This document shows, piece after piece, positions 1 through 8,451 of a DNA stretch of 8,451 bases. A program made the translations under genes and the position numbers. The stretch is from NCBI GenBank assembly GCA_029256645.1, contig JAQSXM010000122.1, forward strand, positions 1 to 8,451. The letters run 5' to 3'. How positions within the stretch are numbered: the first letter of the stretch is position 1; every line of letters begins with the position of its first letter. The DNA comes from Sporomusa sp. Its GTDB lineage: Bacteria > Bacillota_C > Negativicutes > Sporomusales > Sporomusaceae. The notes under the pieces are model-generated. The model saw only the letters and a list, made by a program, of their open reading frames with translations, had not been told where the DNA came from and searched no databases.

Positions 1-633
1 TACAATAACCCGGTCGGAAAGCACAATAGCTTCCTCGATATCATGAGTTACAAACAGTACACTCTTGCCTACCTTTTCCCACATTTTTAAAAAGGCACTG
101 CCAATTTTAACTCTGGTCTGGGCATCCAAGGGGCCAAACGGTTCATCCATAAGATAAAGATCAGGATCATAGGCAAAGGAACGCGCCAAGGCTACCCTTT
201 TTCTCATTCCGCCTGAAAGCTGCTGAGGATAATACTGTTCAAAGTTTTTTAGCCCTACCGAGGCAAGCAAATTTACCGCTTGGACCGTTTGCTCCTTTAT
301 ATTCAGCCCCTTTACCTCCAGCGGTAACCGCACATTATCTACAACGGTTTTCCATGGCAGCAAGGCATCATTTTGAAAGACAAACCCCACTGAGTCAGGC
401 ACACCCTGGACGGCCCTGCCATCCAGCAATATTTCACCACTCTCCGCCTTTAACAAACCTGAAACTGCTTTGAGCAAAGTGGATTTACCGCAGCCACTTG
501 GACCGACGATCGAGACAAATTCGCCATCCTGCACCGTCAAACTAATATCATCAATGGCCAGAGTGCTATGGTCCTTGGTAATATAGCGTATCTTTAGATT
601 TTTAATAGTCAGTTTAGGTATCTCATTGCCCAT
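1..633 (-). CDS. ABC importer ATPase, nitrate/sulfonate/taurine type (3' part outside window)
   Basis: Cytoplasmic ATP-hydrolysing subunit of an ABC importer. The first 211 codons are present and the frame runs open off the left end. Visible motifs are Walker A GPSGCGKST (residues 44-52), Q-loop Gln87 in FVFQND, signature LSGGMRKR (139-146), Walker B LYLMDEP (159-165, catalytic Glu164), the D-loop PLD (168-170) and the switch His197 in FVTHD. The LPW after the Q-loop and the overall pattern fit the SsuB/TauB/NrtD group. The ATG at 631-633 has AGGAG (641-645) seven bases upstream. It starts 52 bases after the nitroreductase stop, with no terminator between, so it probably belongs to the same transcript. 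It is a paralogue of the ATPase at 5681-6454, so a second importer set probably continues beyond position 1. About 45 residues are expected to be missing. The family is clear; the substrate is unknown. Confidence 0.93.
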   Translation of the reverse strand, partial: MGNEIPKLTIKNLKIRYITKDHSTLAIDDISLTVQDGEFVSIVGPSGCGKSTLLKAVSGLLKAESGEILLDGRAVQGVPDSVGFVFQNDALLPWKTVVDNVRLPLEVKGLNIKEQTVQAVNLLASVGLKNFEQYYPQQLSGGMRKRVALARSFAYDPDLYLMDEPFGPLDAQTRVKIGSAFLKMWEKVGKSVLFVTHDIEEAIVLSDRVIV

Positions 634-685
634 ATTTTCACTCCTATTTAAAATTCCGCCTATATTCCCTTGCTCATGCCGTCTC

Positions 686-1537
686 TTATAATTCGGTCAA
701 TAGCGCCTCTTCAACAGAAATTCGCTGTGGCGGATAGGGCGTCTGATCTGGCCAGCCGACATCGACATACGTAACCACACTGAGGTATGCAGGCAAATCA
801 AAATGGTTTCTTAAACGTTCTTTCATTGCCTCAGTAAAGGTAAGCCATACCCCTCCCAGGCCATAAGCATGAGCTGCCAGCACAATATTCTGTGCTGCCG
901 CGCCGCAATCCAAGAGACGATTGCGCACCGGATTTAATGGGTTAGCGGCATAGACCCGTTCATCCTGTAACAGTACAAGATGTACCGGACCTCCGGGTAT
1001 ATCCGCACCTACAAATAAGCCGGGCGTCTTTTCTTCCCGCACAACCAGATAGCGGATGGATTGCAGATTGCAGGAATGAGCCGCCCACAGCCCGGTTTCC
1101 AGTACCTTTCGTACTACCTCTTCCGGCACACGTTCCGCTGCCCAATGGCGAACCGAACGTCTTTCATAAATGACCTGATCAAACAGCGTTTGTTCTCCTG
1201 GGGTGAGAATATGCCACTGCCAGTCTGATAAATTGAGCTCCTGTCCTGCAAGGAGAAGTTTGGCAAAACCGAGAAGTTTTTGTGCATAAACATAATCGGG
1301 TAATTCATGAGACAAACCTCTTTTATCCCATAAGGCAAGCAAACGCAACGCGGTCTCTGTCTGCTTGTCATTTAACGTTTTTTTGTAATAGGCAGCATGA
1401 TAAACCTGGATTTCCATAGTATGATGCAGGCGTTCCCGAAAGCGGGCCCGAAATTCAGTTTCCGCCAGAGAGAGGTATTCAGCATCGGAAAGATTAAACT
1501 TTTTTTGAATTTCTTCAATATTTTCTTTAGTAGACAT
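686..1537 (-). CDS. Nitroreductase-family flavoprotein with N-terminal extension
   Basis: Predicted FMN-dependent oxidoreductase of the nitroreductase superfamily, 283 residues, cytoplasmic. The core begins at about residue 123 with ERRSVRHW (125-132; the Arg-Arg-Ser FMN-phosphate motif). It continues with the family pattern SCNLQS (155-160) and then LLDCGAAAQNIVLAAHAYGLGG (208-229), the usual helix and glycine turn. Residues 1-122 are an additional, mostly helical and charged region that I do not recognise; ordinary family members are about 200 residues. I chose the ATG at 1535-1537 because AAAGGAG (1548-1554) lies ten bases upstream. An in-frame ATG at 1565-1567 would add ten residues and overlap the amidohydrolase stop by 8 bases, but its only purine run abuts the ATG. 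It follows the amidohydrolase by 22 bases, so it is co-transcribed. It may act on the same compound (reduction, dehydrogenation or dehalogenation); the reaction is not determined. Confidence 0.88.
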   Translation of the reverse strand: MSTKENIEEIQKKFNLSDAEYLSLAETEFRARFRERLHHTMEIQVYHAAYYKKTLNDKQTETALRLLALWDKRGLSHELPDYVYAQKLLGFAKLLLAGQELNLSDWQWHILTPGEQTLFDQVIYERRSVRHWAAERVPEEVVRKVLETGLWAAHSCNLQSIRYLVVREEKTPGLFVGADIPGGPVHLVLLQDERVYAANPLNPVRNRLLDCGAAAQNIVLAAHAYGLGGVWLTFTEAMKERLRNHFDLPAYLSVVTYVDVGWPDQTPYPPQRISVEEALLTEL

Positions 1538-1547
1538 TATCGCTTCA

Positions 1548-1554
1548 CTCCTTT
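1548..1554 (-). promoter_or_regulatory. Ribosome binding site deciding the nitroreductase start
   Basis: AAAGGAG on the minus strand, ten bases before the ATG at 1537. The alternative ATG at 1567 has only AAGG directly against it, too close to be used, so this site favours the shorter 283-residue product. Confidence 0.6.
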
Positions 1555-1559
1555 GTGCT

Positions 1560-2885
1560 TCACTCATCCTTATAGTTCTTGTTTTCCGTACGAATCAGGT
1601 CTTCCATAAAGTCAATATACTGTTCCCGGGTATATTTAGGCCGGTATTGCCCGGTAAGTTCCCTGGCCTTGGCGGCATTATCCCGGAGCAGTTTATAGGC
1701 TGCCAGTGCAAAAATCTTGGCTGTGGTGATATACGCGGCTTCCTCATCCACTATGGCAAATTTATCGGTATGAGCCCCGCCGGCAACCCCGCCGGTGTAA
1801 AAGCCCAGTACAGGCAAAACATGTTCTAAATCTCCGACATCGGTTGAACTGGTTTTATGAGAGGCCGGATCGGCTTCATGGATAACAGCCTGCGGCGCTG
1901 CCTCTCGTGCTGCTTCTATTAGGATCGTACTGGCCGGCTGCGGCAACCGTGGTAAATATCCCGGCATGGTGGCAATCTCAATGGCTGCACCAATGGCTTG
2001 GGCACCGGCTTTAAACGCGCGGTCAGTCTTTTTTTCGGCATCAAGAATGGCTTCCACATTCCTGGCCCTGACAAGGGTTTCAATCACTACTTCATTGGGG
2101 ACCACATTCACCAGATTTCCCCCTTTAGTCACAATAGGGTGTACCCTAACCGCATCCTGATCCCGAAAGGTTTCCCGCTGAAAAGCCAGGGCCGCCAGAC
2201 CAAGGGAAGCAGCATTTAAGGCATTAATACCCTTCTCGGGTGCTGCGGCAGCATGTGCTTCTTTCCCTGAATAACGGACGACTTTAGAAACAAAACCGTT
2301 TGATGAACCGCTGCCGATCGAAATGCCGCCCTCCCCGGAATGATTGACAATCGCAAGATCCACATTATCGAACGCGCCAACCCTGATAAGCTCGCATTTA
2401 CCACCGCCATACCTGATCTTGCCTTCTTCCTTAAGCTGATTTTTAAATTCAATTTCACCGTACTCCTCAGCTGGTACGGCAAAGAAGATGACTTCACCGC
2501 CGAGAGCGGCAGCTATCTCCGGATTACTTAAGGCTAAAGCCGCTCCGACAACTCCGGTCAACTGGACATTGTGACCGCAGCAATGAGCTGCCCCGGTTTC
2601 AGAATTAGCAAAAGGATGGGAGGGTATTTTCAGAGCATCCAGTTCACCAATCAACGCCAGTGATACTTCCTGACGGCCTCCTTTCAAATATCCCTTGACG
2701 CCGGTAATCGCTAACCCTTCCTCGGTCTGTAGATTGAGTTCCTTGAGAACTCCCGCGAATTTGGCAGCAGTACGGAACTCCTTATATCCCAGCTCGGCAT
2801 GAGTATAAATATCCCGGCCAAAAGAAATTATTTTTTCCTTGTTCTGATCAATAAGCGCGATAATCCGTTGCTCTATCCTATCCAT
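1560..2885 (-). CDS. M20-family amidohydrolase, AbgB-like (M20D)
   Basis: Metal-dependent amidohydrolase of 441 residues, probably cleaving an amide or N-acyl bond of a small substrate in the cytoplasm. Family motifs occur in order: HAELGYKEF (29-37), GELDAL (80-85), AHCCGHN (100-106, metal-ligand positions Cys103 and His105), AEEYG (139-143, catalytic and metal Glu pair 140/141), His182 in NHSGEGG, the dimerisation-domain motif GKEAHAAAAP (207-216), SSTDVGDL, and His372 in AGGAHTDKF. The Asn in GHN rather than GHD is typical of AbgB, the aminobenzoyl-glutamate hydrolase subunit, so the AbgB branch fits best. A roughly 40-residue tail after the last core helix is extra compared with ordinary M20D enzymes. 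No signal peptide is visible. The ATG at 2885 has AGGAGG (2893-2898) seven bases upstream. It is the first gene after the structured leader at 2886-3051, which suggests its expression is controlled separately from the redox genes. The specific substrate is unknown. Confidence 0.92.
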   Translation of the reverse strand: MDRIEQRIIALIDQNKEKIISFGRDIYTHAELGYKEFRTAAKFAGVLKELNLQTEEGLAITGVKGYLKGGRQEVSLALIGELDALKIPSHPFANSETGAAHCCGHNVQLTGVVGAALALSNPEIAAALGGEVIFFAVPAEEYGEIEFKNQLKEEGKIRYGGGKCELIRVGAFDNVDLAIVNHSGEGGISIGSGSSNGFVSKVVRYSGKEAHAAAAPEKGINALNAASLGLAALAFQRETFRDQDAVRVHPIVTKGGNLVNVVPNEVVIETLVRARNVEAILDAEKKTDRAFKAGAQAIGAAIEIATMPGYLPRLPQPASTILIEAAREAAPQAVIHEADPASHKTSSTDVGDLEHVLPVLGFYTGGVAGGAHTDKFAIVDEEAAYITTAKIFALAAYKLLRDNAAKARELTGQYRPKYTREQYIDFMEDLIRTENKNYKDE

Positions 2886-2916
2886 AACATATCCTCCTGT
2901 TGTGATAGTCTTTAAA

Positions 2917-3037
2917 TGACAAAAAGGCCCACTTCTCCGCCTGAGAAATGCAGCCTTTGGTTATTTCCAATCAGCTATGCACGCTGTCCTTTTTGTATCA
3001 AATCAATCGTTTTTTCTCAGGCCTCTGCTTTTTGTCA
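2917..3037 (-). promoter_or_regulatory. Candidate attenuator/riboswitch leader with competing folds
   Basis: Two perfect ten-base inverted repeats enclose this segment. TGACAAAAAG (minus, 3037-3028) matches CTTTTTGTCA (2926-2917), and GCCTGAGAAA (3022-3013) matches TTTCTCAGGC (2948-2939). The second repeat takes the rising arm of the terminator inner stem, and the first takes the terminator T-run. The long-range fold and the terminator at 2919-2958 are therefore mutually exclusive, the classic design of a transcription attenuator. Between the arms are two small hairpin candidates: CAGC/GCTG (2986-2983 with 2975-2972) and TTGG/CCAA (2970-2967 with 2960-2957). I cannot match the core to a riboswitch class I know. 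A small mobile element with terminal inverted repeats is an alternative reading. Confidence 0.5.
2919..2958 (-). terminator. Intrinsic terminator hairpin in leader of amidohydrolase gene
   Basis: On the minus strand AAAGGC (2958-2953) pairs with GCCTTT (2928-2923). Inside this, ATTTCTC (2949-2943) pairs with GAGAAGT (2937-2931, one G-U) around the five-base loop AGGCG. A 3/2-base internal loop separates the two stems. A run of five T (2925-2921), partly used by the stem, then GTC follows. It lies 33 bases upstream of the amidohydrolase ATG. The T run is short, so termination may be partial. It could act as the end of the ferredoxin transcript, as an attenuator, or both. Confidence 0.6.
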
Positions 3038-3051
3038 GTCAGCCTCTAAAA

Positions 3052-3414
3052 TTAACGGGCAATTGTAAAAACGTTGCCTGTTGCCGGTGCCTTCCGTTCA
3101 GCCCCAAAGTCAACCACTAAATCGCGGATAACCGGATACTTTCTGGCTGGTTCCACTAAATATTCCCGGCCCGGCTCCAAAACAACATGGCACGATTTTT
3201 TGACCACCCCATCCACAGTCATCAGACAACTGCCACACAAACCGCGTCCACAAAAGTAGTCACGAAAGCCCAGTGTAGGATCAATGGTCTCGTAAACCTT
3301 TTTTACTGCCATCAGCAGTGTCAGCCCCTCAGCCCCTGGCAATACATAGGTCGTATAGTAAGGCAGAGAATCGGTTTCCGGATTAAAGCGAAATATTCTT
3401 AAGCGAATGTCCAT
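3052..3414 (-). CDS. Stand-alone [2Fe-2S] protein, FrdB/SdhB N-terminal domain type
   Basis: Small iron-sulfur electron carrier of 120 residues, predicted partner of the flavoprotein encoded 13 bases upstream. It resembles the N-terminal plant-ferredoxin-like domain of succinate dehydrogenase/fumarate reductase subunit B. The cluster ligands are Cys55, Cys60, Cys63 and Cys75 (spacing C-x4-C-x2-C-x11-C, in CGRGLCGSC and KKSC). The start DIRLRIFRFNPETD also fits that family. Full FrdB proteins are about 240 residues and carry a second domain with [4Fe-4S] and [3Fe-4S] clusters. That half is absent here, and the stop is followed by the leader rather than a continuation in another frame, so this looks like a genuine single-domain form. 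The ATG at 3414 has GGAGG (3421-3425) six bases upstream. No membrane segment or signal peptide is present, so it is cytoplasmic. Confidence 0.9.
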   Translation of the reverse strand: MDIRLRIFRFNPETDSLPYYTTYVLPGAEGLTLLMAVKKVYETIDPTLGFRDYFCGRGLCGSCLMTVDGVVKKSCHVVLEPGREYLVEPARKYPVIRDLVVDFGAERKAPATGNVFTIAR

Positions 3415-3427
3415 AATATACCTCCAA

Positions 3428-5095
3428 TTAGAGCTTGGTTACGGGAATAGCGGTGACTTTGGGCTCACCTTGCTGTAGCGAAATTAAAGTATGCTGCCCC
3501 TCGGCTTCGGTTTGGGGATAATCGGTCCGGAAATGATGTCCACGCGTTTCTTGCCGCGCGAGAGCCGATAAAATGACGATTTCCGCCAGCGCCAGCATGC
3601 CCCTCACTTCATAAGCTTCCTGGACCTCATAACAGTAACGCTTGTGGGGAACAACCTTAAGAAAAGATAAAGTTTTCCGCAAATCACGGACTTTTCTTAG
3701 CCCGGTGTTTAGGCTTTCTTCATTTCGTTCCAGGCCCACATATTGATCCATAATCGTTTTGAGCTGGGATTTTAAAGCAATCGGCCGGACCGCATACTCT
3801 TTGTCCTGCTTCCATTCGTCAATCTGATGATACTCTGTCAGCACTTCCTGCTCAGCCGCAACCACTAAAAAATCAACCTTTGCCGCGAACTGACAAGCAC
3901 TCAGGGCTGCCCTGCGGCCGAATACCTGGGTTTCAGACAATGCATTTCCCGATATGCGGTTGGCACCATGTACATTACCGGTAATTTCCCCGGCCGCAAA
4001 TAAGCCCGGCACATTGGTCCGGCCATGTTCATCAATTTTTATCCCGCCAAGGCAATAATGGGCCGCAGGCGCCATTTCCAGCTTGTCTTTTCTAAGATCG
4101 ATACCGACATTAAGCAGATTACCAAATTGATGCAGCCAAGCTGTAATTCTTTCGGTGAGCACCGCCGGCGGATATTTAGAATGCGTCAAATCGACAAAGA
4201 AACCGCCATGAGGGCTTGCGGTACCCTTTTTCACCTCTTCGCGTATGGCTTTTATAAATTCATCCCTGGCGGGAAAACCCTCAACAAATACCTCTTCCTT
4301 GCCGTTCAGTACCCGGCCGTCCAAAATATCCGGGTTCAATATGTATTCATACTGTACCAGCCAGCCGCGGGCCGCCGGCGGATATACAACCACCCCGGGA
4401 TAGTAAAGTACCATTTCCAGATCGACAAGCTGTGCACCCACTTGATAAACCATAGCCAACGTTTCACCAGTTGCATCAGGTGGAGTATCCGTAAAGGGCC
4501 ACAGCTCCTCATAGCCTCCCGTTGCCAAAAGCGTGGCCTTAGCCTGAATCACTTGGATTTCTCCACTGTTTGTATTTAAATACACCGCGCCGATCACCCG
4601 GTCATCCCGGACCAGAAAACGCGTAACAACAGCACTGTCGATGATAAATACATTGGGTAGTTGAGCTACCTTTTTATGGAGACTGGCAGCCAGCCCCCAG
4701 CCCCCTCCCATAATAAACAAATTGCGGGAGTGGCTTTGCCCCGGACGTACGGAGGTTGCAAAAGTCCCATCCTCCTTCTTCTTGAATTTAGCCCCATAGG
4801 CCTCCAGTTCTTTGATCCGCTCCACCGAATCTTCGGCCAAAGCTCTGGCCAGGTCCTGATCTGCCAGACCCCGTCCCGCCGTGACAGTATCCTTAAAATG
4901 CATTTCTACCGAATCACCGGCATTAACGGCCCCTTCGATCCCTTCGCCTGCAACCGGGGTAATCCCGGTTTTGGCTAAAGGCCCTTTACTGAGAAGGACA
5001 ACCTGCCGTCCCTGTTCGGCTGCCGCAATCGCAGCCTTAATGCCGGCACCGCCACCGCCAATGACTAAAATATCGGTTTTCTTCGTCTCAAACAT
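3428..5095 (-). CDS. FAD-dependent fumarate-reductase-like flavoprotein
   Basis: Flavoprotein of the SdhA/FrdA/NadB superfamily, 555 residues, with no signal peptide or haem motifs. The N-terminal FAD site is DILVIGGGGAGIKAA (8-22, GxGxxG at 13-18). The capping domain spans roughly 240-340. The second FAD segment is NVPGLFAAGEITGNVHGANR (361-380) followed by SGNALSETQVFGRRAA (382-397). The C-terminal helical domain includes RNEESLNTGLRKVRDL (457-472), and ETRGHHFRTDYP (516-527) matches the family's SRGAHxRxDYP. Of the fumarate reductase active-site positions, the Arg of the RD motif (Arg277), the His of AHYxxGG (His346) and the Arg of GANR (Arg380) are kept. The HPTG His is Tyr232 (LYYPG) and the Thr is Gly. 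It is therefore probably a reductase or dehydrogenase of an unusual acid, not fumarate itself. The start overlaps the ATC-hydrolase-like gene by 8 bases (ATG at 5095, GGAGG at 5102-5106), so the two are tightly coupled. Confidence 0.93.
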   Translation of the reverse strand: MFETKKTDILVIGGGGAGIKAAIAAAEQGRQVVLLSKGPLAKTGITPVAGEGIEGAVNAGDSVEMHFKDTVTAGRGLADQDLARALAEDSVERIKELEAYGAKFKKKEDGTFATSVRPGQSHSRNLFIMGGGWGLAASLHKKVAQLPNVFIIDSAVVTRFLVRDDRVIGAVYLNTNSGEIQVIQAKATLLATGGYEELWPFTDTPPDATGETLAMVYQVGAQLVDLEMVLYYPGVVVYPPAARGWLVQYEYILNPDILDGRVLNGKEEVFVEGFPARDEFIKAIREEVKKGTASPHGGFFVDLTHSKYPPAVLTERITAWLHQFGNLLNVGIDLRKDKLEMAPAAHYCLGGIKIDEHGRTNVPGLFAAGEITGNVHGANRISGNALSETQVFGRRAALSACQFAAKVDFLVVAAEQEVLTEYHQIDEWKQDKEYAVRPIALKSQLKTIMDQYVGLERNEESLNTGLRKVRDLRKTLSFLKVVPHKRYCYEVQEAYEVRGMLALAEIVILSALARQETRGHHFRTDYPQTEAEGQHTLISLQQGEPKVTAIPVTKL

Positions 5096-5615
5096 GACTG
5101 TCCTCCGCTATCTGTTTATCATTTTTCTGCCATTGCACAACCGTATGACAATGGGCGTCTCCGTTTAAAACATTGGTGAATTGCTGCAAATCAAAGTCCT
5201 TATTGTATCCCTTACGCATACACAGATCCTGCTCGCAATATATAAGCCCCAGTTTTTCACCGCCCATTTCTTTCCATTGTTCTGCAAAAGGGCAATAAAC
5301 CACCTGTTTCTCCAGATAATTCTCTTCCACCTTGATTTTTTCCGAAACCCAGGCTAAAGGTAACGGCAGGTCGTAATACCGTGACAGGTTCTCGACCGTC
5401 AAAGGGAGTCCTGCACCCGTAACCTCTTTATGAATCTTGCGCCCCCGGGCCTCCCCATATTTATGAATCGCCCGCCGCACAGCCGCTTCACCTTCAACAC
5501 CGAATTGAGCTGTCACTTCACTGCCCATATAATAGTACAGCATGGCCAAGGTACGTGCCATTTTATCGACAATGTCCCTGACCTCAGACTGCGTAAATGT
5601 TTTTTCTGCCGGCAT
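5088..5615 (-). CDS. ATC hydrolase family protein (L-2-amino-thiazoline-4-carboxylate hydrolase-like)
   Basis: Protein of 175 residues resembling the L-2-amino-thiazoline-4-carboxylic acid hydrolase family. The founding enzyme, from Pseudomonas, opens the thiazoline ring to give N-carbamoyl-L-cysteine. Recognised features are the helical GVEGEAAVRRAIHKYGEARG (39-58), the conserved YCPFAEQWKEMG (107-118), YCEQDLCMRKGYN (126-138) and the C-terminal NGDAHCH (151-157). Cys108, Cys127, Cys132 and Cys156 are candidates for catalysis or metal binding. I chose the ATG at 5613-5615 with AAAGGAG (5626-5632) ten bases upstream. The same frame stays open to a TTG at 5663 (191 residues), but that start and the ATG at 5657 have no good ribosome binding site. 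It is placed between the transporter ATPase and the flavoprotein, overlapping the latter by 8 bases. Many family members are not thiazoline enzymes or are untested, so the substrate is inferred only broadly as an N/S heterocycle or related ring. Confidence 0.8.
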   Translation of the reverse strand: MPAEKTFTQSEVRDIVDKMARTLAMLYYYMGSEVTAQFGVEGEAAVRRAIHKYGEARGRKIHKEVTGAGLPLTVENLSRYYDLPLPLAWVSEKIKVEENYLEKQVVYCPFAEQWKEMGGEKLGLIYCEQDLCMRKGYNKDFDLQQFTNVLNGDAHCHTVVQWQKNDKQIAEDSHV

Positions 5616-5625
5616 TACCTCACAA

Positions 5626-5632
5626 CTCCTTT
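5626..5632 (-). promoter_or_regulatory. Ribosome binding site deciding the ATC-hydrolase-like start
   Basis: AAAGGAG on the minus strand, ten bases before the ATG at 5615. Upstream in-frame starts (TTG at 5663, ATG at 5657) lack a comparable site, so this supports the 175-residue form. Confidence 0.55.
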
Positions 5633-5680
5633 CTCTATCCGATTTTATCCGATTCATTGTCAACTGACTTTGCCTATTAA

Positions 5681-6454
5681 TTATAGGATATATTCCAGAT
5701 CGGCATCGGTTTTAACATCATTAATCGACATATAAATTTCATTTTGCATGTTAAGTAATCCGGTGTCATCGCGCCGCCGCGGGCGCGTATTCTTAATATC
5801 AAAAATTTTTTTAATTTTGCCAGGCCGCGGGGTAAACAGCACCACTCTGTCGGCCAGGAAAACGGCTTCTGAAACATCATGGGTAACAAACACAACGGTT
5901 TTTTTCTCTGCCTGCCAAATATCCAAAAGATCATTCTGGAGTTGCAGGCGTGTCAAATGATCAACAGCGCCAAACGGTTCATCCATTAACAGCACCTCAG
6001 GATTATTGACCAATGCCCTGGCTATACCGGCCCGTTGCCGCATACCGCCGGACAGCTGATGAGGATATTTGTTCTCAAAGCCCTGCAAACCCACCATCGC
6101 AAGATATTTCTCAGCCCTGGCTTTACGCTCAGCCTTGGCGATCCCTTTAATTTCCAAACCCAGCGCCACATTATCGGCAATCGTCCGCCAGGGGTACAGG
6201 GAAGGATCCTGAAATACAAAGCCTAATTTATGATTGGGTGTTTGCAGCTTCTCCTGATTAAAAAAGATCTCACCGCTGGTCGGCTGCTGTAAGCCGGCCA
6301 AAACTTCAAGAAGCGTACTTTTGCCGCAGCCACTTGGTCCCAGGATACACAGAAACTCTCCGTCCCGGATGGTTAAATTAATTTCCTCTAAACTCTTGGT
6401 TGCAGAAGGGCCGGGATATACCTTGGAAACTTGCCTGATAACAAACTCAGCCAT
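5681..6454 (-). CDS. ABC importer ATPase, nitrate/sulfonate/taurine type
   Basis: ATP-hydrolysing subunit of 257 residues, the usual length for SsuB/TauB/NrtD proteins. It has Walker A GPSGCGKST (39-47), Q-loop Gln82 (FVFQDP), LYPW after it, signature LSGGMRQR (134-141), Walker B VLLMDEP (154-160, Glu159) and switch His192 (FVTHD). The D-loop reads AVD rather than the common LD, a mild deviation also seen in working relatives. The ATG at 6454 has AGAGGAG (6461-6467) six bases upstream and lies 19 bases after the binding-protein stop. With the two genes before it, it forms a complete permease/binding protein/ATPase importer. It closely resembles the ATPase starting at 633, so the locus carries two importers of one family. 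The imported compound is not determined by these motifs. Confidence 0.95.
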   Translation of the reverse strand: MAEFVIRQVSKVYPGPSATKSLEEINLTIRDGEFLCILGPSGCGKSTLLEVLAGLQQPTSGEIFFNQEKLQTPNHKLGFVFQDPSLYPWRTIADNVALGLEIKGIAKAERKARAEKYLAMVGLQGFENKYPHQLSGGMRQRAGIARALVNNPEVLLMDEPFGAVDHLTRLQLQNDLLDIWQAEKKTVVFVTHDVSEAVFLADRVVLFTPRPGKIKKIFDIKNTRPRRRDDTGLLNMQNEIYMSINDVKTDADLEYIL

Positions 6455-6473
6455 ATTGTTCTCCTCTGCTAGG

Positions 6474-7469
6474 TTATTTTTGTGGAATAAACCTTACATC
6501 CAAAATCTTACTAAGATCGTAAATCTTCTCCTGGAAGCCTTGTTCAAGTTGGATCCTCTGTGTATCATTCAGGGAGTCTGCATTGACAGCAGGATTGTTT
6601 TCCCATAAAACACTTTCTCTTTTTAATGCATCTGCCAATACAGCCCTGTCGATTTTGACACTTTTCATCGCATAATCTAAATACTCATCCTGATGATTCT
6701 TTGCATATTCCTGTGATTTTAAATAAGCACGAATCATTTTTTCTACTAATTCAGGCTGCTTATTGATAAATTGACTGCTGGCGGTCAGCACACCGGTATG
6801 AAAAGTTGGAAGATAATCCCAGCCCCTGGCCAAAAGATGTGCTTTACCTGTAGTTTCGCCCAAAGTTACAAATGGCTCATGAATAATGGTGGCATCCACT
6901 TGACCTGACTCCAAGCTGGCAAACGCCTGATTATGACTGCCGTTGGCAATAAAGGTCACATCATTTGGGGTCAGACCATGTTTTTGCAAAATGACCCGGG
7001 TATATACTTCCAGGCCTGTACCAAAACCGGAGATGCCTATCTTCTTGCCCCTGAGATCTTCAATCTTCTTAATTTCCGGCTTACTGATCAGATAAAAAGG
7101 TCCTTTGGTTCTAAATGCCGAAGCAACAATTTTAACCGGGGCCCCCCGGCCGGCAGCAATAATGGCATTAGTAGTCGGCGAATCGGCAAAATCAACATCC
7201 CCGCTGGCCAGCCCGGAAATGGAATCTTTCATCTCAATAAGTTCAACATCGATCCCTTCTTCGGCAAAAAAACCTTTATCCTTACCCATACGCGCCGCTA
7301 AGCCGTTTAACCCTGTATAGGGAGCGTATCTCACTTTAACCAGGGCCGGTTTACTGTCTGTAGGCGCTTCAGCCGGCTTCACCTGGCCGCCGCAGCCGCT
7401 CACCAGCACCATTATGAGTAAACTCGCTAAACCAAGCAATAGACCCCGATATTTAATAAACTCTGTCAT
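6474..7469 (-). CDS. ABC transporter substrate-binding lipoprotein, SsuA/TauA/NMT1 type
   Basis: Extracytoplasmic binding protein of 331 residues that delivers the substrate to the permease. The N-terminus MTEFIKYR, a hydrophobic stretch (9-23) and lipobox LVSGC give lipid-modified Cys26 as the mature first residue. A polar linker rich in Pro, Ala and Lys follows. The mature part has the NMT1-like pattern: KVRYAPYTGLNGLAA, the DKGFFAEEGIDVELI segment typical of the family, a short ASGDVDFADSPTTNAI region, and LRGKKIGISGFGTGLEVYTR in the second lobe. I chose the ATG at 7467-7469 because AAAGGAG (7479-7485) is nine bases upstream and it gives a normal signal peptide. An in-frame ATG at 7505 would add 12 residues and overlap the permease gene. 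It follows the permease by 20 bases. The family imports sulfonates, nitrate, taurine, pyrimidine precursors, aromatic acids and others, so the ligand is open. Confidence 0.93.
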   Translation of the reverse strand: MTEFIKYRGLLLGLASLLIMVLVSGCGGQVKPAEAPTDSKPALVKVRYAPYTGLNGLAARMGKDKGFFAEEGIDVELIEMKDSISGLASGDVDFADSPTTNAIIAAGRGAPVKIVASAFRTKGPFYLISKPEIKKIEDLRGKKIGISGFGTGLEVYTRVILQKHGLTPNDVTFIANGSHNQAFASLESGQVDATIIHEPFVTLGETTGKAHLLARGWDYLPTFHTGVLTASSQFINKQPELVEKMIRAYLKSQEYAKNHQDEYLDYAMKSVKIDRAVLADALKRESVLWENNPAVNADSLNDTQRIQLEQGFQEKIYDLSKILDVRFIPQK

Positions 7470-7478
7470 TGTTTGCAT

Positions 7479-7485
7479 CTCCTTT
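7479..7485 (-). promoter_or_regulatory. Ribosome binding site deciding the binding-protein start
   Basis: AAAGGAG on the minus strand, nine bases before the ATG at 7469. It supports the 331-residue lipoprotein over the longer in-frame version from 7505. Confidence 0.65.
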
Positions 7486-7489
7486 AGTT

Positions 7490-8260
7490 TCATAATGATT
7501 TCCATTTTAAAAACACTTTTTTCTCCAGAAAATCAATAGCGGCAATGATCAATACCGAAACAACGGTAACGATAACAATAATGGCAAAAACCTGAGCCGT
7601 ATTATATAGTTGGGTGGCTTTCACCAGAATATTGCCCAATCCTTCCTTAGAGGCTAACATCTCACCAAACAAAGCGCCTACCAGACCTGTACCGGCAGCC
7701 ACCCTCATACCGGCAAAAATAGTGGGCATTGCCGAGGGTAAAATAACCTTTTTGATAATTTGGCTTTGTGTGGCTCCCAGTACGCGCGCCACCTTAATAT
7801 GATTTTCCGCCGTATGTTTTATGCCGGTAATGGTATTGAACAATATCGGAAAAAAACTAAAAACAAAAACAACAACCATCTTATTTACCATGCCAATGCC
7901 CAGCCACAAAGTCATCAGCGGAATGATGGTAACCTTGGGTATAGCCATCAGCGCTGATAAAAACGGTTTAAAGAAACTCTCGGCGTAAGGGGTTAACACC
8001 AAAAACAACCCAATGCCGACAGCCAAAATCGTCGCTGCAGCGTAACCAAATACAAATTCGGTTAACGTAACAGATAGATGAGTAAAAATCAGATTTTGTT
8101 GAAATAAACCGCTAAATTCACCGATAACCTGCGATGGTGGTGCCAAATACAGATTACTCACCATACCTCGCTGGACAATAAACTCACTGATTACCAGCAA
8201 CACCGTTAACAGCATGGCTTGGCCGGAAATAAGCTTCCAGGCGGAAATGCCTTTACTCAT
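7490..8260 (-). CDS. ABC importer permease, SsuC/TauC type
   Basis: Membrane subunit of an ABC importer, 256 residues, the usual size. Hydrophobic segments are visible at about 12-29, 64-88, 100-120, 126-146, 180-200 and 222-245, fitting six membrane spans. The ATPase-contact (EAA) loop is VARVLGATQSQIIKKVILPSA (157-177), with the conserved Gly162 and the LP pair at 174-175. YLAPPSQV near the N-terminus and the GLG of SKEGLGN (204-210) are typical of this permease group. The ATG at 8258-8260 has AAAGGAGG (8267-8274) six bases upstream, one of the strongest sites in the window. It is the first gene after the palindrome-bearing gap and the first of the importer trio. No other gene encodes the membrane part in this window, so it presumably acts as a homodimer with the binding protein and ATPase that follow. 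Confidence 0.95.
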   Translation of the reverse strand: MSKGISAWKLISGQAMLLTVLLVISEFIVQRGMVSNLYLAPPSQVIGEFSGLFQQNLIFTHLSVTLTEFVFGYAAATILAVGIGLFLVLTPYAESFFKPFLSALMAIPKVTIIPLMTLWLGIGMVNKMVVVFVFSFFPILFNTITGIKHTAENHIKVARVLGATQSQIIKKVILPSAMPTIFAGMRVAAGTGLVGALFGEMLASKEGLGNILVKATQLYNTAQVFAIIVIVTVVSVLIIAAIDFLEKKVFLKWKSL

Positions 8261-8271
8261 ATCTATCCTCC

Positions 8272-8283
8272 TTTACCGGCAAC
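8272..8283. promoter_or_regulatory. Second operator-like site overlapping the permease ribosome binding site
   Basis: TTTACCGGCAAC matches 10 of 12 bases of the palindrome core GTTACCGGTAAC (8319-8330). Its centre lies 47 bp from that of the main palindrome. It runs into the AAAGGAGG of the permease gene, so a bound repressor could block elongation, or the two sites could be bridged. It is short, so chance similarity is possible. Confidence 0.35.
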
Positions 8284-8305
8284 TTTATTTCACTGCCGTC
8301 TATTT

Positions 8306-8343
8306 CTTTGTCCTTTATGTTACCGGTAACATAAAGGACAAAG
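8306..8343. repeat. Perfect 38-bp palindrome, probable operator
   Basis: Each half is 19 bases with no spacer. The centre is ATGTTACCGGTAACAT and the outer arms are CTTTGTCC and GGACAAAG. The CG-centred core looks like a LacI-family operator. From memory it resembles the ATGTTA-N4-TAACAT consensus of the E. coli gluconate repressor GntR, which is a LacI-family protein. It begins one base after the stop of the putative LacI-type gene and ends 45 bases before the permease start. It could also form a strong RNA hairpin, but no T-run follows on either strand, so a standard terminator is unlikely. Confidence 0.75.
8314..8341 (-). promoter_or_regulatory. Candidate promoter embedded in the palindrome
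   Basis: On the minus strand TTGTCC (8341-8336) and CATAAA (8319-8314) match the -35 and -10 consensus at four of six positions each, with a 16-base spacer. The palindrome core sits between them, the classical position for a repressor. Because the palindrome is perfect, the same elements exist on the plus strand, so the orientation is set by context only. The match is modest. Confidence 0.3.
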
Positions 8344-8344
8344 T

Positions 8345-8451
8345 TTAACTCTCGGCTGCCACGGTCGATGCCCTGACAAGCATTTCTCCTTTTAAACTGA
8401 TTTCACTAAAGGAGCTTCCTGGCGAACAATCATTAATACGCAAGAATAAAA
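8345..8451 (-). CDS. C-terminal end of a LacI-family transcriptional regulator (5' part outside window)
   Basis: An open frame enters at the right edge and stops with TAA at 8347-8345, giving the last 34 residues of a protein. The end reads LFLRIND, a variable stretch, then ISLKGEMLVRASTVAAES. This matches the usual tail of LacI-family repressors: a helix ending in LLxRI, then a strand of the form IxLPxELVVRxST. The DNA-binding and most of the ligand-binding domain lie outside the window. The call rests on this short pattern and on the CG-centred palindrome one base after the stop, which suits a regulator controlling itself and the downstream importer. Another protein ending by chance in a similar motif cannot be excluded. 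Confidence 0.6.
   Translation of the reverse strand, partial: LFLRINDCSPGSSFSEISLKGEMLVRASTVAAES

Follow-up and report, generated by a model that had tools for sequence, protein, structure and literature searches.

A candidate catabolic operon of Sporomusa sp. combining an ATC_hydrolase-family protein, two flavin systems and an M20 amidohydrolase

Organization of the operon

We analysed 8,451 nt of DNA from Sporomusa sp. (assembly GCA_029256645.1, contig JAQSXM010000122.1, positions 1–8,451 of the forward strand), hereafter called the window, which carries a candidate catabolic operon. The unit consists of one complete NMT1/SsuA-type importer, the ATPase of a second importer and five recurring enzyme-type genes. 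The eight co-directional genes that a preliminary description of this DNA had placed between 8260 and 686 are real, and all of them scored above the curated Pfam cut-offs. That gene run was delimited correctly, but the unit extends past both of its ends. A LacI-family regulator, a palindrome and a second importer had been overlooked, as had the decarboxylase of a close relative and the association between two of the enzyme families that are reported below. Labels beginning with G, L and P denote genomes, locus stretches and proteins, respectively.

The five enzyme-type genes, all on the minus strand, encode a 175-aa ATC_hydrolase-family protein (ATCh; 5088..5615; PF14196, 67.5 bits) with a V4R/MopR-like predicted fold, a flavoprotein resembling FrdA and L-aspartate oxidase (3428..5095; PF00890, 203 bits; PF02910, 77.5 bits), a 120-aa [2Fe-2S] Fer2_3 protein presumed to be the partner of the FrdA-like protein (3052..3414; PF13085, 79.6 bits), an M20 amidohydrolase with a CGHN motif (1560..2885; PF01546, 41.7 bits; TIGR01891, 174.4 bits) and a nitroreductase-fold flavoenzyme with an N-terminal helical extension of ~120 residues (686..1567; PF00881, 78.5 bits). 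The open reading frame (ORF) list starts ATCh at 5663; most aligned orthologues begin at the Met encoded at 5615, which is probably the true start. The other three of the eight genes, also on the minus strand, form ATP-binding cassette (ABC) importer 1: a permease of the SsuC/TauC type (7490..8260; PF00528 (BPD_transp_1), 96.5 bits), an NMT1/THI5-type substrate-binding protein (6474..7505; PF09084, 126.9 bits) and an ATPase (5681..6454; PF00005, 130 bits). In gene order, the intergenic spacings are -16, 19, 65, -8, 13, 166 and -8 nt. The ATPase of ABC importer 2, cut by the window end (1..633, minus strand; PF00005, 120 bits), lies 52 nt past position 686 and runs in the same direction as the eight genes.

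At the opposite end lies the 3' end of the LacI-family regulator gene (8345..8451, minus strand), the remainder of which is beyond the window; its frame matches the LacI C-terminus encoded at L070 817–1878. Between the regulator and the first gene, sequence inspection revealed a perfect 38-nt palindrome (8306..8343, without strand; core TGTTACCGGTAACA), a probable LacI-type operator. Both the LacI gene and the palindrome adjoin the first gene, the arrangement expected of a LacI-regulated operon, and the operon is probably under LacI control. In the close relative G766, a genome sampled from the class of G003 (the metagenome-assembled genome (MAG) containing L003), the palindrome core is unchanged and one outer arm carries two uncompensated changes, a pattern expected if the site binds a protein and not if it folds as an RNA hairpin. 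An Rfam search of the window (E ≤ 5) returned only microRNA models, all on the palindrome, which we dismissed as chance matches, and none on the leader.

The leader is the 166-nt gap between two gene modules, Fer2_3 and M20 being the genes that flank it (2886..3051, minus strand). It contains a terminator-like hairpin (2930–2950) and an exact alternative pairing of 10 nt, GCCTGAGAAA at 3013–3022 with TTTCTCAGGC at 2939–2948. The 10-nt complement lies upstream of the hairpin and could pair with its 5' side, an attenuator-like layout. Folding of this 'structured leader', as the preliminary description calls it, exceeded that of shuffled sequences only modestly (z = -2.06; 8 of 200 shuffles were equally good). 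Twelve terminator-like sites, including the leader hairpin, were found in the window, and shuffles gave 9.4 on average (standard deviation 3.6), so the terminator scan alone is no evidence. The leaders of the window and G766 differ at three positions in the aligned stretch, too few for a covariation test.

Recurrence of the five enzyme families

Rather than lying apart in relatives, the outcome that the preliminary description had named as speaking against its unit, the five enzyme families were found together in G766 and, at 25–47% identity, in the diverged locus L092. G766 is 97.8% identical to the window over positions 1–5047 and 98.2% over 5048–5644. Its genes are ordered LacI, permease remnants, ATCh, FrdA, Fer2, leader, M20, nitroreductase, ATPase 2, permease 2, NMT1 binding protein 2, UbiD and a PF21758 protein. 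Two deletions, of window stretches 5645–7551 and 7635–8192, have removed most of importer 1; alignment of L070:1–923 with window 5048–8451 showed permease remnants, while the regulator, palindrome and enzymes are retained. The loss of importer 1 amounts to a natural experiment on what the operon can do without. Raw ratios of non-synonymous to synonymous substitution (dN/dS) between the window and G766 ranged from 0.06 to 0.32 in six genes, two of them partial and all with few differences, and the five enzymes look to be under constraint despite the loss. Importer 2 may substitute for importer 1 in this relative.

The end of the G766 operon holds a UbiD decarboxylase gene beside that of the PF21758 protein, which belongs to a proteasome-assembling-chaperone-like family (gene order read in L069/L070). 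One report describes LpdD as similar to such a proteasome-assembling chaperone and as a binder of reduced prenylated flavin, which UbiD uses (PMC10865409); the G766 PF21758 protein may be LpdD-like. The UbiD and PF21758 neighbours are what the operon shares with the LpdC–LpdD (UbiD) gallate decarboxylase, but the pair is known from G766 alone and lies outside the window. Upstream of the G766 operon (L070:4451–13323), we also observed a second UbiD gene and a UbiX-type flavoprotein gene and, by sequence look only, genes for an MFS carrier, a butyrate-kinase-like protein and a 2-oxoacid:ferredoxin oxidoreductase-like protein, possibly a second aromatic-acid cluster.

We surveyed ATCh genes with a sequence profile (A1, E ≤ 1e-10) and found them in 15 of 299 genomes of the phylum of G003, 15 of 297 of the phylum of G001 and 5 of 12 of the family of G766, 35 loci in total. 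Neighbourhoods of up to ~20 kb were examined (G766 as two adjacent slices), some of them cut by contig ends. Because the profile failed to pick up the fused ATCh of G113 and G149, two genomes of this sample, the census is a lower bound and under-represents nitroreductase-linked members. FrdA was found near ATCh at 8 of the 35 loci (G766, L001, L061, L062, L063, L065, L092 and L122) and Fer2 at seven. M20 (G766, L061 and L092), the extended nitroreductase (G766, L064 and L092, with a weak further 58-bit match in L113) and a desulfidase-type gene (L061, L065 and L092) were each present at three, and UbiD at two (G766 and L001). In the plasmids searched, neither ATCh (E ≤ 1e-5) nor FrdA (E ≤ 1e-60) was found, and the only nitroreductases, in 10 records, were distant.

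Searches that started from the extended nitroreductase gave the tightest link found. Matches in 3 of 398 and 3 of 100 genomes (both E ≤ 1e-40) and in 5 of 150 (E ≤ 1e-20) amounted to eight distinct genomes; repeat counts of 2 of 299 and 1 of 4 fell on genomes already within the 398, and the phyla of G003 and G002 are identical. An ATCh-type gene accompanied the nitroreductase in all eight genomes: fused to it in L054 and L056, adjacent in L135 and within ~5 kb in L055, L069/L070, L071, L073 and L092. P0154 and the L054 protein are apparently one sequence (identical start, length and scores) and were counted as one fusion. An alignment (A3) of the fusion protein with separate ATCh sequences was set aside, as it apparently placed the latter on the nitroreductase domain. 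The PF14196 cut-off of 28.1 bits was passed by the nitroreductase-linked ATCh in six of the eight genomes, G766 being judged by its 97% identity to the window protein; the fused domains scored 25.2 bits (E = 3.2e-5) and, in a copy cut by a contig end, 17.0 bits.

M20 and the nitroreductase are also linked. Among the 120 matches listed for each, 16 contig sizes were shared, whereas 2000 runs of a jittered control averaged 0.64 and never exceeded 5; the 16 include 2850, which joins M20 and nitroreductase entries from unlike sources and could be coincidental. So could the shared sizes 1332 (ATCh and nitroreductase) and 1786 (ATCh and M20). A contig size of 25,204 bp is common to ATCh, M20 and nitroreductase relatives at 79–83% identity. 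In L055 the order is M20, ATCh, an importer with 58–61% identity to importer 1, and nitroreductase. The strongest case for recurrence of the set is L092, which carries ATCh (25% identity), an MFS carrier, FrdA (28%), Fer2 (29%), nitroreductase (31%), M20 (47%), RidA and a desulfidase-type gene. The complete five-family set is nevertheless rare. Of 28 genomes searched in the order of G766, G766 alone had M20 at 99% identity; the 10 others that matched held paralogues of 45–50%. Nor are the eight window genes one indivisible unit: G766 has dropped importer 1, and ATCh–FrdA–Fer2 and M20–nitroreductase are also found apart.

Several other arrangements were observed. In L003 (3307–10498), an ATCh gene (60%) ends a cluster with genes for a gamma-glutamyltransferase-like and a ThiO-like FAD enzyme (FAD, flavin adenine dinucleotide), both below model cut-offs; an amino-acid-type ABC importer was recognised there by sequence look alone. 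In the LivKHMGF–ATCh cluster of L135 (9531–16040), only a fragment of the usual nitroreductase remains; a different one, also extended (77% identity to that of L092), stands at the other cluster end, as if it had taken the place of the first. M20 paralogues of 44–49% identity in the order of G766 (L093–L102) lay at 10 of 10 loci beside two membrane-type proteins of ~270 and ~150 aa, as judged by sequence look. ATCh-family genes also occur in MAGs titled Thermococci (L004:10097–10375 and L005:3–188), where no partner genes were recognised nearby, L005 being cut by a contig end.

Predicted folds and active sites

ATCh is a member of PF14196 (67.5 bits against a cut-off of 28.1). Its AlphaFold2 model (predicted local distance difference test (pLDDT) score, 90) matched TRAPP Bet3 and three phenol sensors (MopR, PoxR and DmpR) in Foldseek/VIA comparisons; V4R and H-NOX proteins ranked lower. 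These matches cover most of the chain, and the predicted structure is that of the V4R/MopR/Bet3 ligand-binding fold. By sequence, nothing in the PDB matched at E ≤ 10. The fold is shared with V4R proteins, the MopR, PoxR and DmpR sensors, BchJ and TRAPP Bet3; unlike the sensors and vesicle proteins of this group, ATCh is free-standing or fused to a nitroreductase and is encoded beside enzymes. In an alignment of the window protein with 28 proteins chosen from the loci rather than every match (numbering of the 191-aa ORF), C143 and C172 were conserved in 29 of 29 proteins and C124 and D146 in 28 of 29. A study of a methanogen domain relates it to heme-NO-binding, V4R and ATC-hydrolase (PF14196) domains and mentions a cluster of three Cys (PMC5847659).

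The extended nitroreductase belongs to PF00881 (78.5 bits against 23.5; Foldseek E = 2.3e-10), and its AlphaFold2 model (pLDDT 89.7) has the fold of small flavin mononucleotide (FMN) reductases, BluB and cyclodipeptide oxidases. The extension carries the motif [R/H]ERxHHxxE[I/V] in all seven proteins checked, including those of L092, L064 and a fusion; the window form is RERxHHxxEI.

The M20 enzyme scored 174.4 bits with the TIGR01891 'amidohydrolase' model (cut-off 153.75) and only 18.6 bits with the allantoate amidohydrolase model (cut-off 424), and no carbamoylase model was among its 10 NCBIfam matches (E ≤ 1e-3). By these sequence models the enzyme is not of the N-carbamoyl type. A PDB sequence search identified Xaa-Arg dipeptidase, HmrA and YxeP as its nearest solved relatives, and an aminobenzoyl-glutamate utilization protein also matched. 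We place it with the YxeP/AbgB/PM20D2-type M20 amidohydrolases, with which it shares TIGR01891 membership and the CGHN motif. The relay suggested in the preliminary description, in which ATC hydrolase forms an N-carbamoyl amino acid for M20 to cleave, is not supported: M20 fails the allantoate model and matches no carbamoylase, and the ATCh fold is that of V4R/MopR proteins.

The FrdA-like protein contains both fumarate reductase/succinate dehydrogenase flavoprotein domains, PF00890 and PF02910. Aligned with PDB flavoproteins and with L001 and L057–L060, it retains R277, H346 and R380, which we take to be the proton-relay Arg and the carboxylate-binding His and Arg. The second carboxylate-binding His is missing, with Y232-P in place of H-P, and there is no covalent-FAD His at the flavin site. 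Tyr232 in place of His, together with the three retained residues, suggests that the substrate has one such carboxylate and that its second group is of another kind. The cysteines of the Fer2_3 partner align in relatives; at 120 aa it lacks the [4Fe-4S] half of FrdB, and no membrane anchor gene is among the window genes. The best NCBIfam match of the FrdA-like protein was the thiol:fumarate reductase TfrA (425.9 bits, below the cut-off of 718). It thus resembles fumarate reductase, L-aspartate oxidase and TfrA in its FAD_binding_2 and C-terminal domains and in the active-site Arg, His and Arg, but differs in the Tyr for His, the absent covalent-FAD His, the 120-aa partner and the lack of an anchor gene. 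FrdA-like proteins of 40–43% identity were also seen in L057–L060, apparently other catabolic clusters, with arylmalonate-decarboxylase-like genes (L057 and L058), an arginase-family gene (L058), and Fer2 (L057, L058 and L060); M24-type, ETF and TRAP genes were noted there by sequence look alone.

The binding protein of importer 1 belongs to the broad NMT1 family PF09084 but scored 144.8 bits, below the cut-off of 163.5, with TIGR01728 (SsuA_fam). Its relatives by PDB sequence search are THI5, SsuA and taurine binding proteins; matches to TAL-effector chains were rejected as an artefact of a ~30-residue stretch.

Outside the window, the desulfidase-type protein of L092 aligned with the L-cysteine desulfidase structure 9he0 (E = 4.9e-31), matching its Cys-Thr-Glu motif and three cluster-type cysteines, features that mark it as a putative L-cysteine desulfidase. 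Similar motifs occur in L061 and L065, all three loci showing GCTE. The family is SDH_alpha in Pfam and has no NCBIfam name; according to one report, the serine dehydratase family does not conserve Cys23 and Glu25 of L-cysteine desulfidase (PMC12647591).

A proposed pathway and its alternatives

From gene content, recurrence, predicted folds, active-site residues and constraint, we infer the following reaction steps. The importer would take up an anionic ring compound, a carboxylic acid whose ring contains nitrogen and most likely also sulfur. Together, the extended nitroreductase (FMN) and ATCh would form one working unit, the former changing the redox state of the ring and the latter binding and opening it by azoline-type hydrolysis to give an N-acyl amino acid, at best guess N-acyl-cysteine, whose amide M20 would cleave. 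The FrdA-like/[2Fe-2S] pair could carry out a further two-electron step on a carboxylate beside a C=C or C-N bond. UbiD in the close relative would then decarboxylate the released unsaturated or aromatic acid, and the desulfidase in the diverged clusters would break down the released cysteine.

The general part of this scheme, import of one ring compound and its dismantling by successive redox and hydrolytic steps, is likely. All five families recur in G766 and the diverged L092, ATCh accompanies the nitroreductase in eight of eight genomes, M20 is linked to the nitroreductase, and L055 unites an importer, M20, ATCh and nitroreductase. Binding of a ring by ATCh is suggested by the fold of the phenol sensors MopR, PoxR and DmpR, and an aromatic or unsaturated acid by UbiD and PF21758 in G766 and by UbiD in L001. 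Cysteine as a product is suggested by the desulfidase-type proteins of L061, L065 and L092 and by RidA in L092, but a specific cysteine-yielding ring-opening route is less likely than not. The earlier idea of a nitrogen- and/or sulfur-containing substrate is consistent with the desulfidase-type proteins of three sister loci, and the N-carbamoyl relay is unsupported. Our best explanation of the whole, put forward tentatively, is a probably LacI-controlled operon of a Negativicutes bacterium for the anaerobic catabolism of a nitrogen- (most likely nitrogen/sulfur-) ring carboxylic acid, plausibly of the azoline/azole type. A more specific version is improbable in its full detail: an anaerobic pathway, not described before, that would handle 2-substituted thiazole/thiazoline (or oxazole/oxazoline) 4-carboxylic acids, for example aryl-thiazoline fragments of natural products, in which the nitroreductase-fold enzyme would reduce azole to azoline, its constant and at times fused partner, the V4R-fold ATCh, would open it to N-aroyl-cysteine or -serine, M20 would split the amide, UbiD would decarboxylate the aryl acid and the desulfidase would consume cysteine.

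A number of observations weigh against a single pathway of this kind. All five families stood together at only 2 of the 35 ATCh loci, G766 and L092, which belong to one taxonomic family, and ATCh turned up in 5 of 12 genomes of the G766 family. In the stretches examined, no FrdA was seen at 27 of the 35 loci and no clear extended nitroreductase at 32. L001 has ATCh–FrdA–Fer2 without M20 or nitroreductase, and L055 and L071/L073 have the nitroreductase without FrdA. Among 398 genomes of the phylum there was no FrdA close to that of the window (11 matches at E ≤ 1e-80, the best at 46%). The distant FrdA proteins of L061–L063 and L065 are without some of the active-site residues of the window protein and may do different chemistry. 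The FrdA-like gene of L092 (9304–11082) contains an in-frame TGA; selenocysteine was dismissed here, since relatives have Phe, Leu or Arg at this position and not Cys; a nonsense mutation or an error in sequencing is more plausible. A cysteine desulfidase is encoded neither in the window nor in the examined G766 stretch, and UbiD is absent from the examined stretches of all three desulfidase loci. The two product clues thus stem from separate clusters and need not hold for the window.

In the main rival reading, ATCh is a small non-enzymatic ligand-binding helper presenting an aromatic substrate to the flavoenzymes, nitroreductase and FrdA; the operon would reduce an aromatic or alkenoic acid, perhaps as an electron acceptor, and M20 would free the acid from an amino acid. 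This is a serious but minority possibility. It draws on the V4R/MopR/Bet3 fold of ATCh and on the flavin oxidoreductases in its company, namely the extended nitroreductases of all eight genomes, FrdA at 8 of 35 loci and the ThiO-like FAD enzyme of L003 (below its cut-off). An FAD-binding protein is encoded among the tolyporphin genes (PMC8401325), and the roles considered for BchJ, which the authors left open, were substrate carrier, scaffold or chaperone for chlorophyllide reductase (PMC4432870). Three Cys and one Asp that are near-invariant (28–29 of 29) are not obviously needed by a mere carrier, and the PF14196 family was named after a purified hydrolase, reportedly that of Tashima in 2006. 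A division into two unrelated modules side by side, ATCh–FrdA–Fer2 with importer 1 and M20–nitroreductase with importer 2, each for its own compound, would accord with the attenuator-like 166-nt leader and its terminator-like hairpin between them, with L001, which carries ATCh–FrdA–Fer2 alone, and with the loss of importer 1 alone in G766. Of the 16 contig sizes shared by M20 and nitroreductase, moreover, only 25,204 (and ambiguously 2,850) was among the 68 ATCh matches, in a search that reaches close relatives only. This division is nonetheless rather unlikely, given the full set in the diverged L092, the ATCh-type genes that accompany the nitroreductase across the supposed boundary in eight of eight genomes and the importer 1 relatives that sit with M20 and nitroreductase in L055.

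Two further readings fare worse. A detoxification or electron-sink operon, in which the nitroreductase and FrdA/Fer2 would pass electrons to nitroaromatics or fumarate with the hydrolases as accessories, has the nitroreductase fold and FrdA homology in its favour; it is very unlikely, as Tyr replaces the second carboxylate-binding His, the partner lacks the [4Fe-4S] half, and the specific-type importer and LacI-type regulator point to use of a compound. Least probable of all is the literal Pseudomonas pathway, in which ATCh would open 2-aminothiazoline-4-carboxylate (ATC) to N-carbamoyl-cysteine and M20 would decarbamoylate it, supplying sulfur and nitrogen. ATCh does belong to PF14196, and the desulfidase-type proteins of three sister loci would suit cysteine release; M20, however, is a TIGR01891 amidohydrolase outside the carbamoylase/allantoate group, and two flavoenzymes and UbiD would have no role. 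Set against the Pseudomonas route from ATC to cysteine (ATC hydrolase and carbamoyl-cysteine amidohydrolase), the operon shares a PF14196 protein and an amide hydrolase, with cysteine likely in the sister clusters, but its M20 is not of the carbamoylase group, and the Pseudomonas pathway as described contains nothing that corresponds to the two flavin systems, the importers or UbiD (PMC10821248).

Thiamine-pyrimidine salvage was dropped, as no thiamine gene was among those identified. ThiXYZ–YlmB, the formylaminopyrimidine salvage system, likewise combines an NMT1-type importer with an M20 hydrolase, but nitroreductase, ATCh and FrdA have no place there.

The individual families are known. Among the listed titles and abstracts of open-licence papers, which do not show absence from print, none described the set, the nitroreductase–ATCh association or the link with UbiD and a desulfidase. 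PF14196 proteins are labelled 'ATC hydrolase' even in organisms without any known such role; the nitroreductase–PF14196 pairing in eight of eight genomes, with FrdA/Fer2, M20, UbiD and desulfidase around some of them, gives the family a concrete and testable set of partners. If the azole pathway were true, the members of this ATC-hydrolase branch would open rings in partnership with flavin reductases. If real, the pathway would amount to an anaerobic way of taking stable ring compounds apart and would provide a function for one branch of this poorly understood family.

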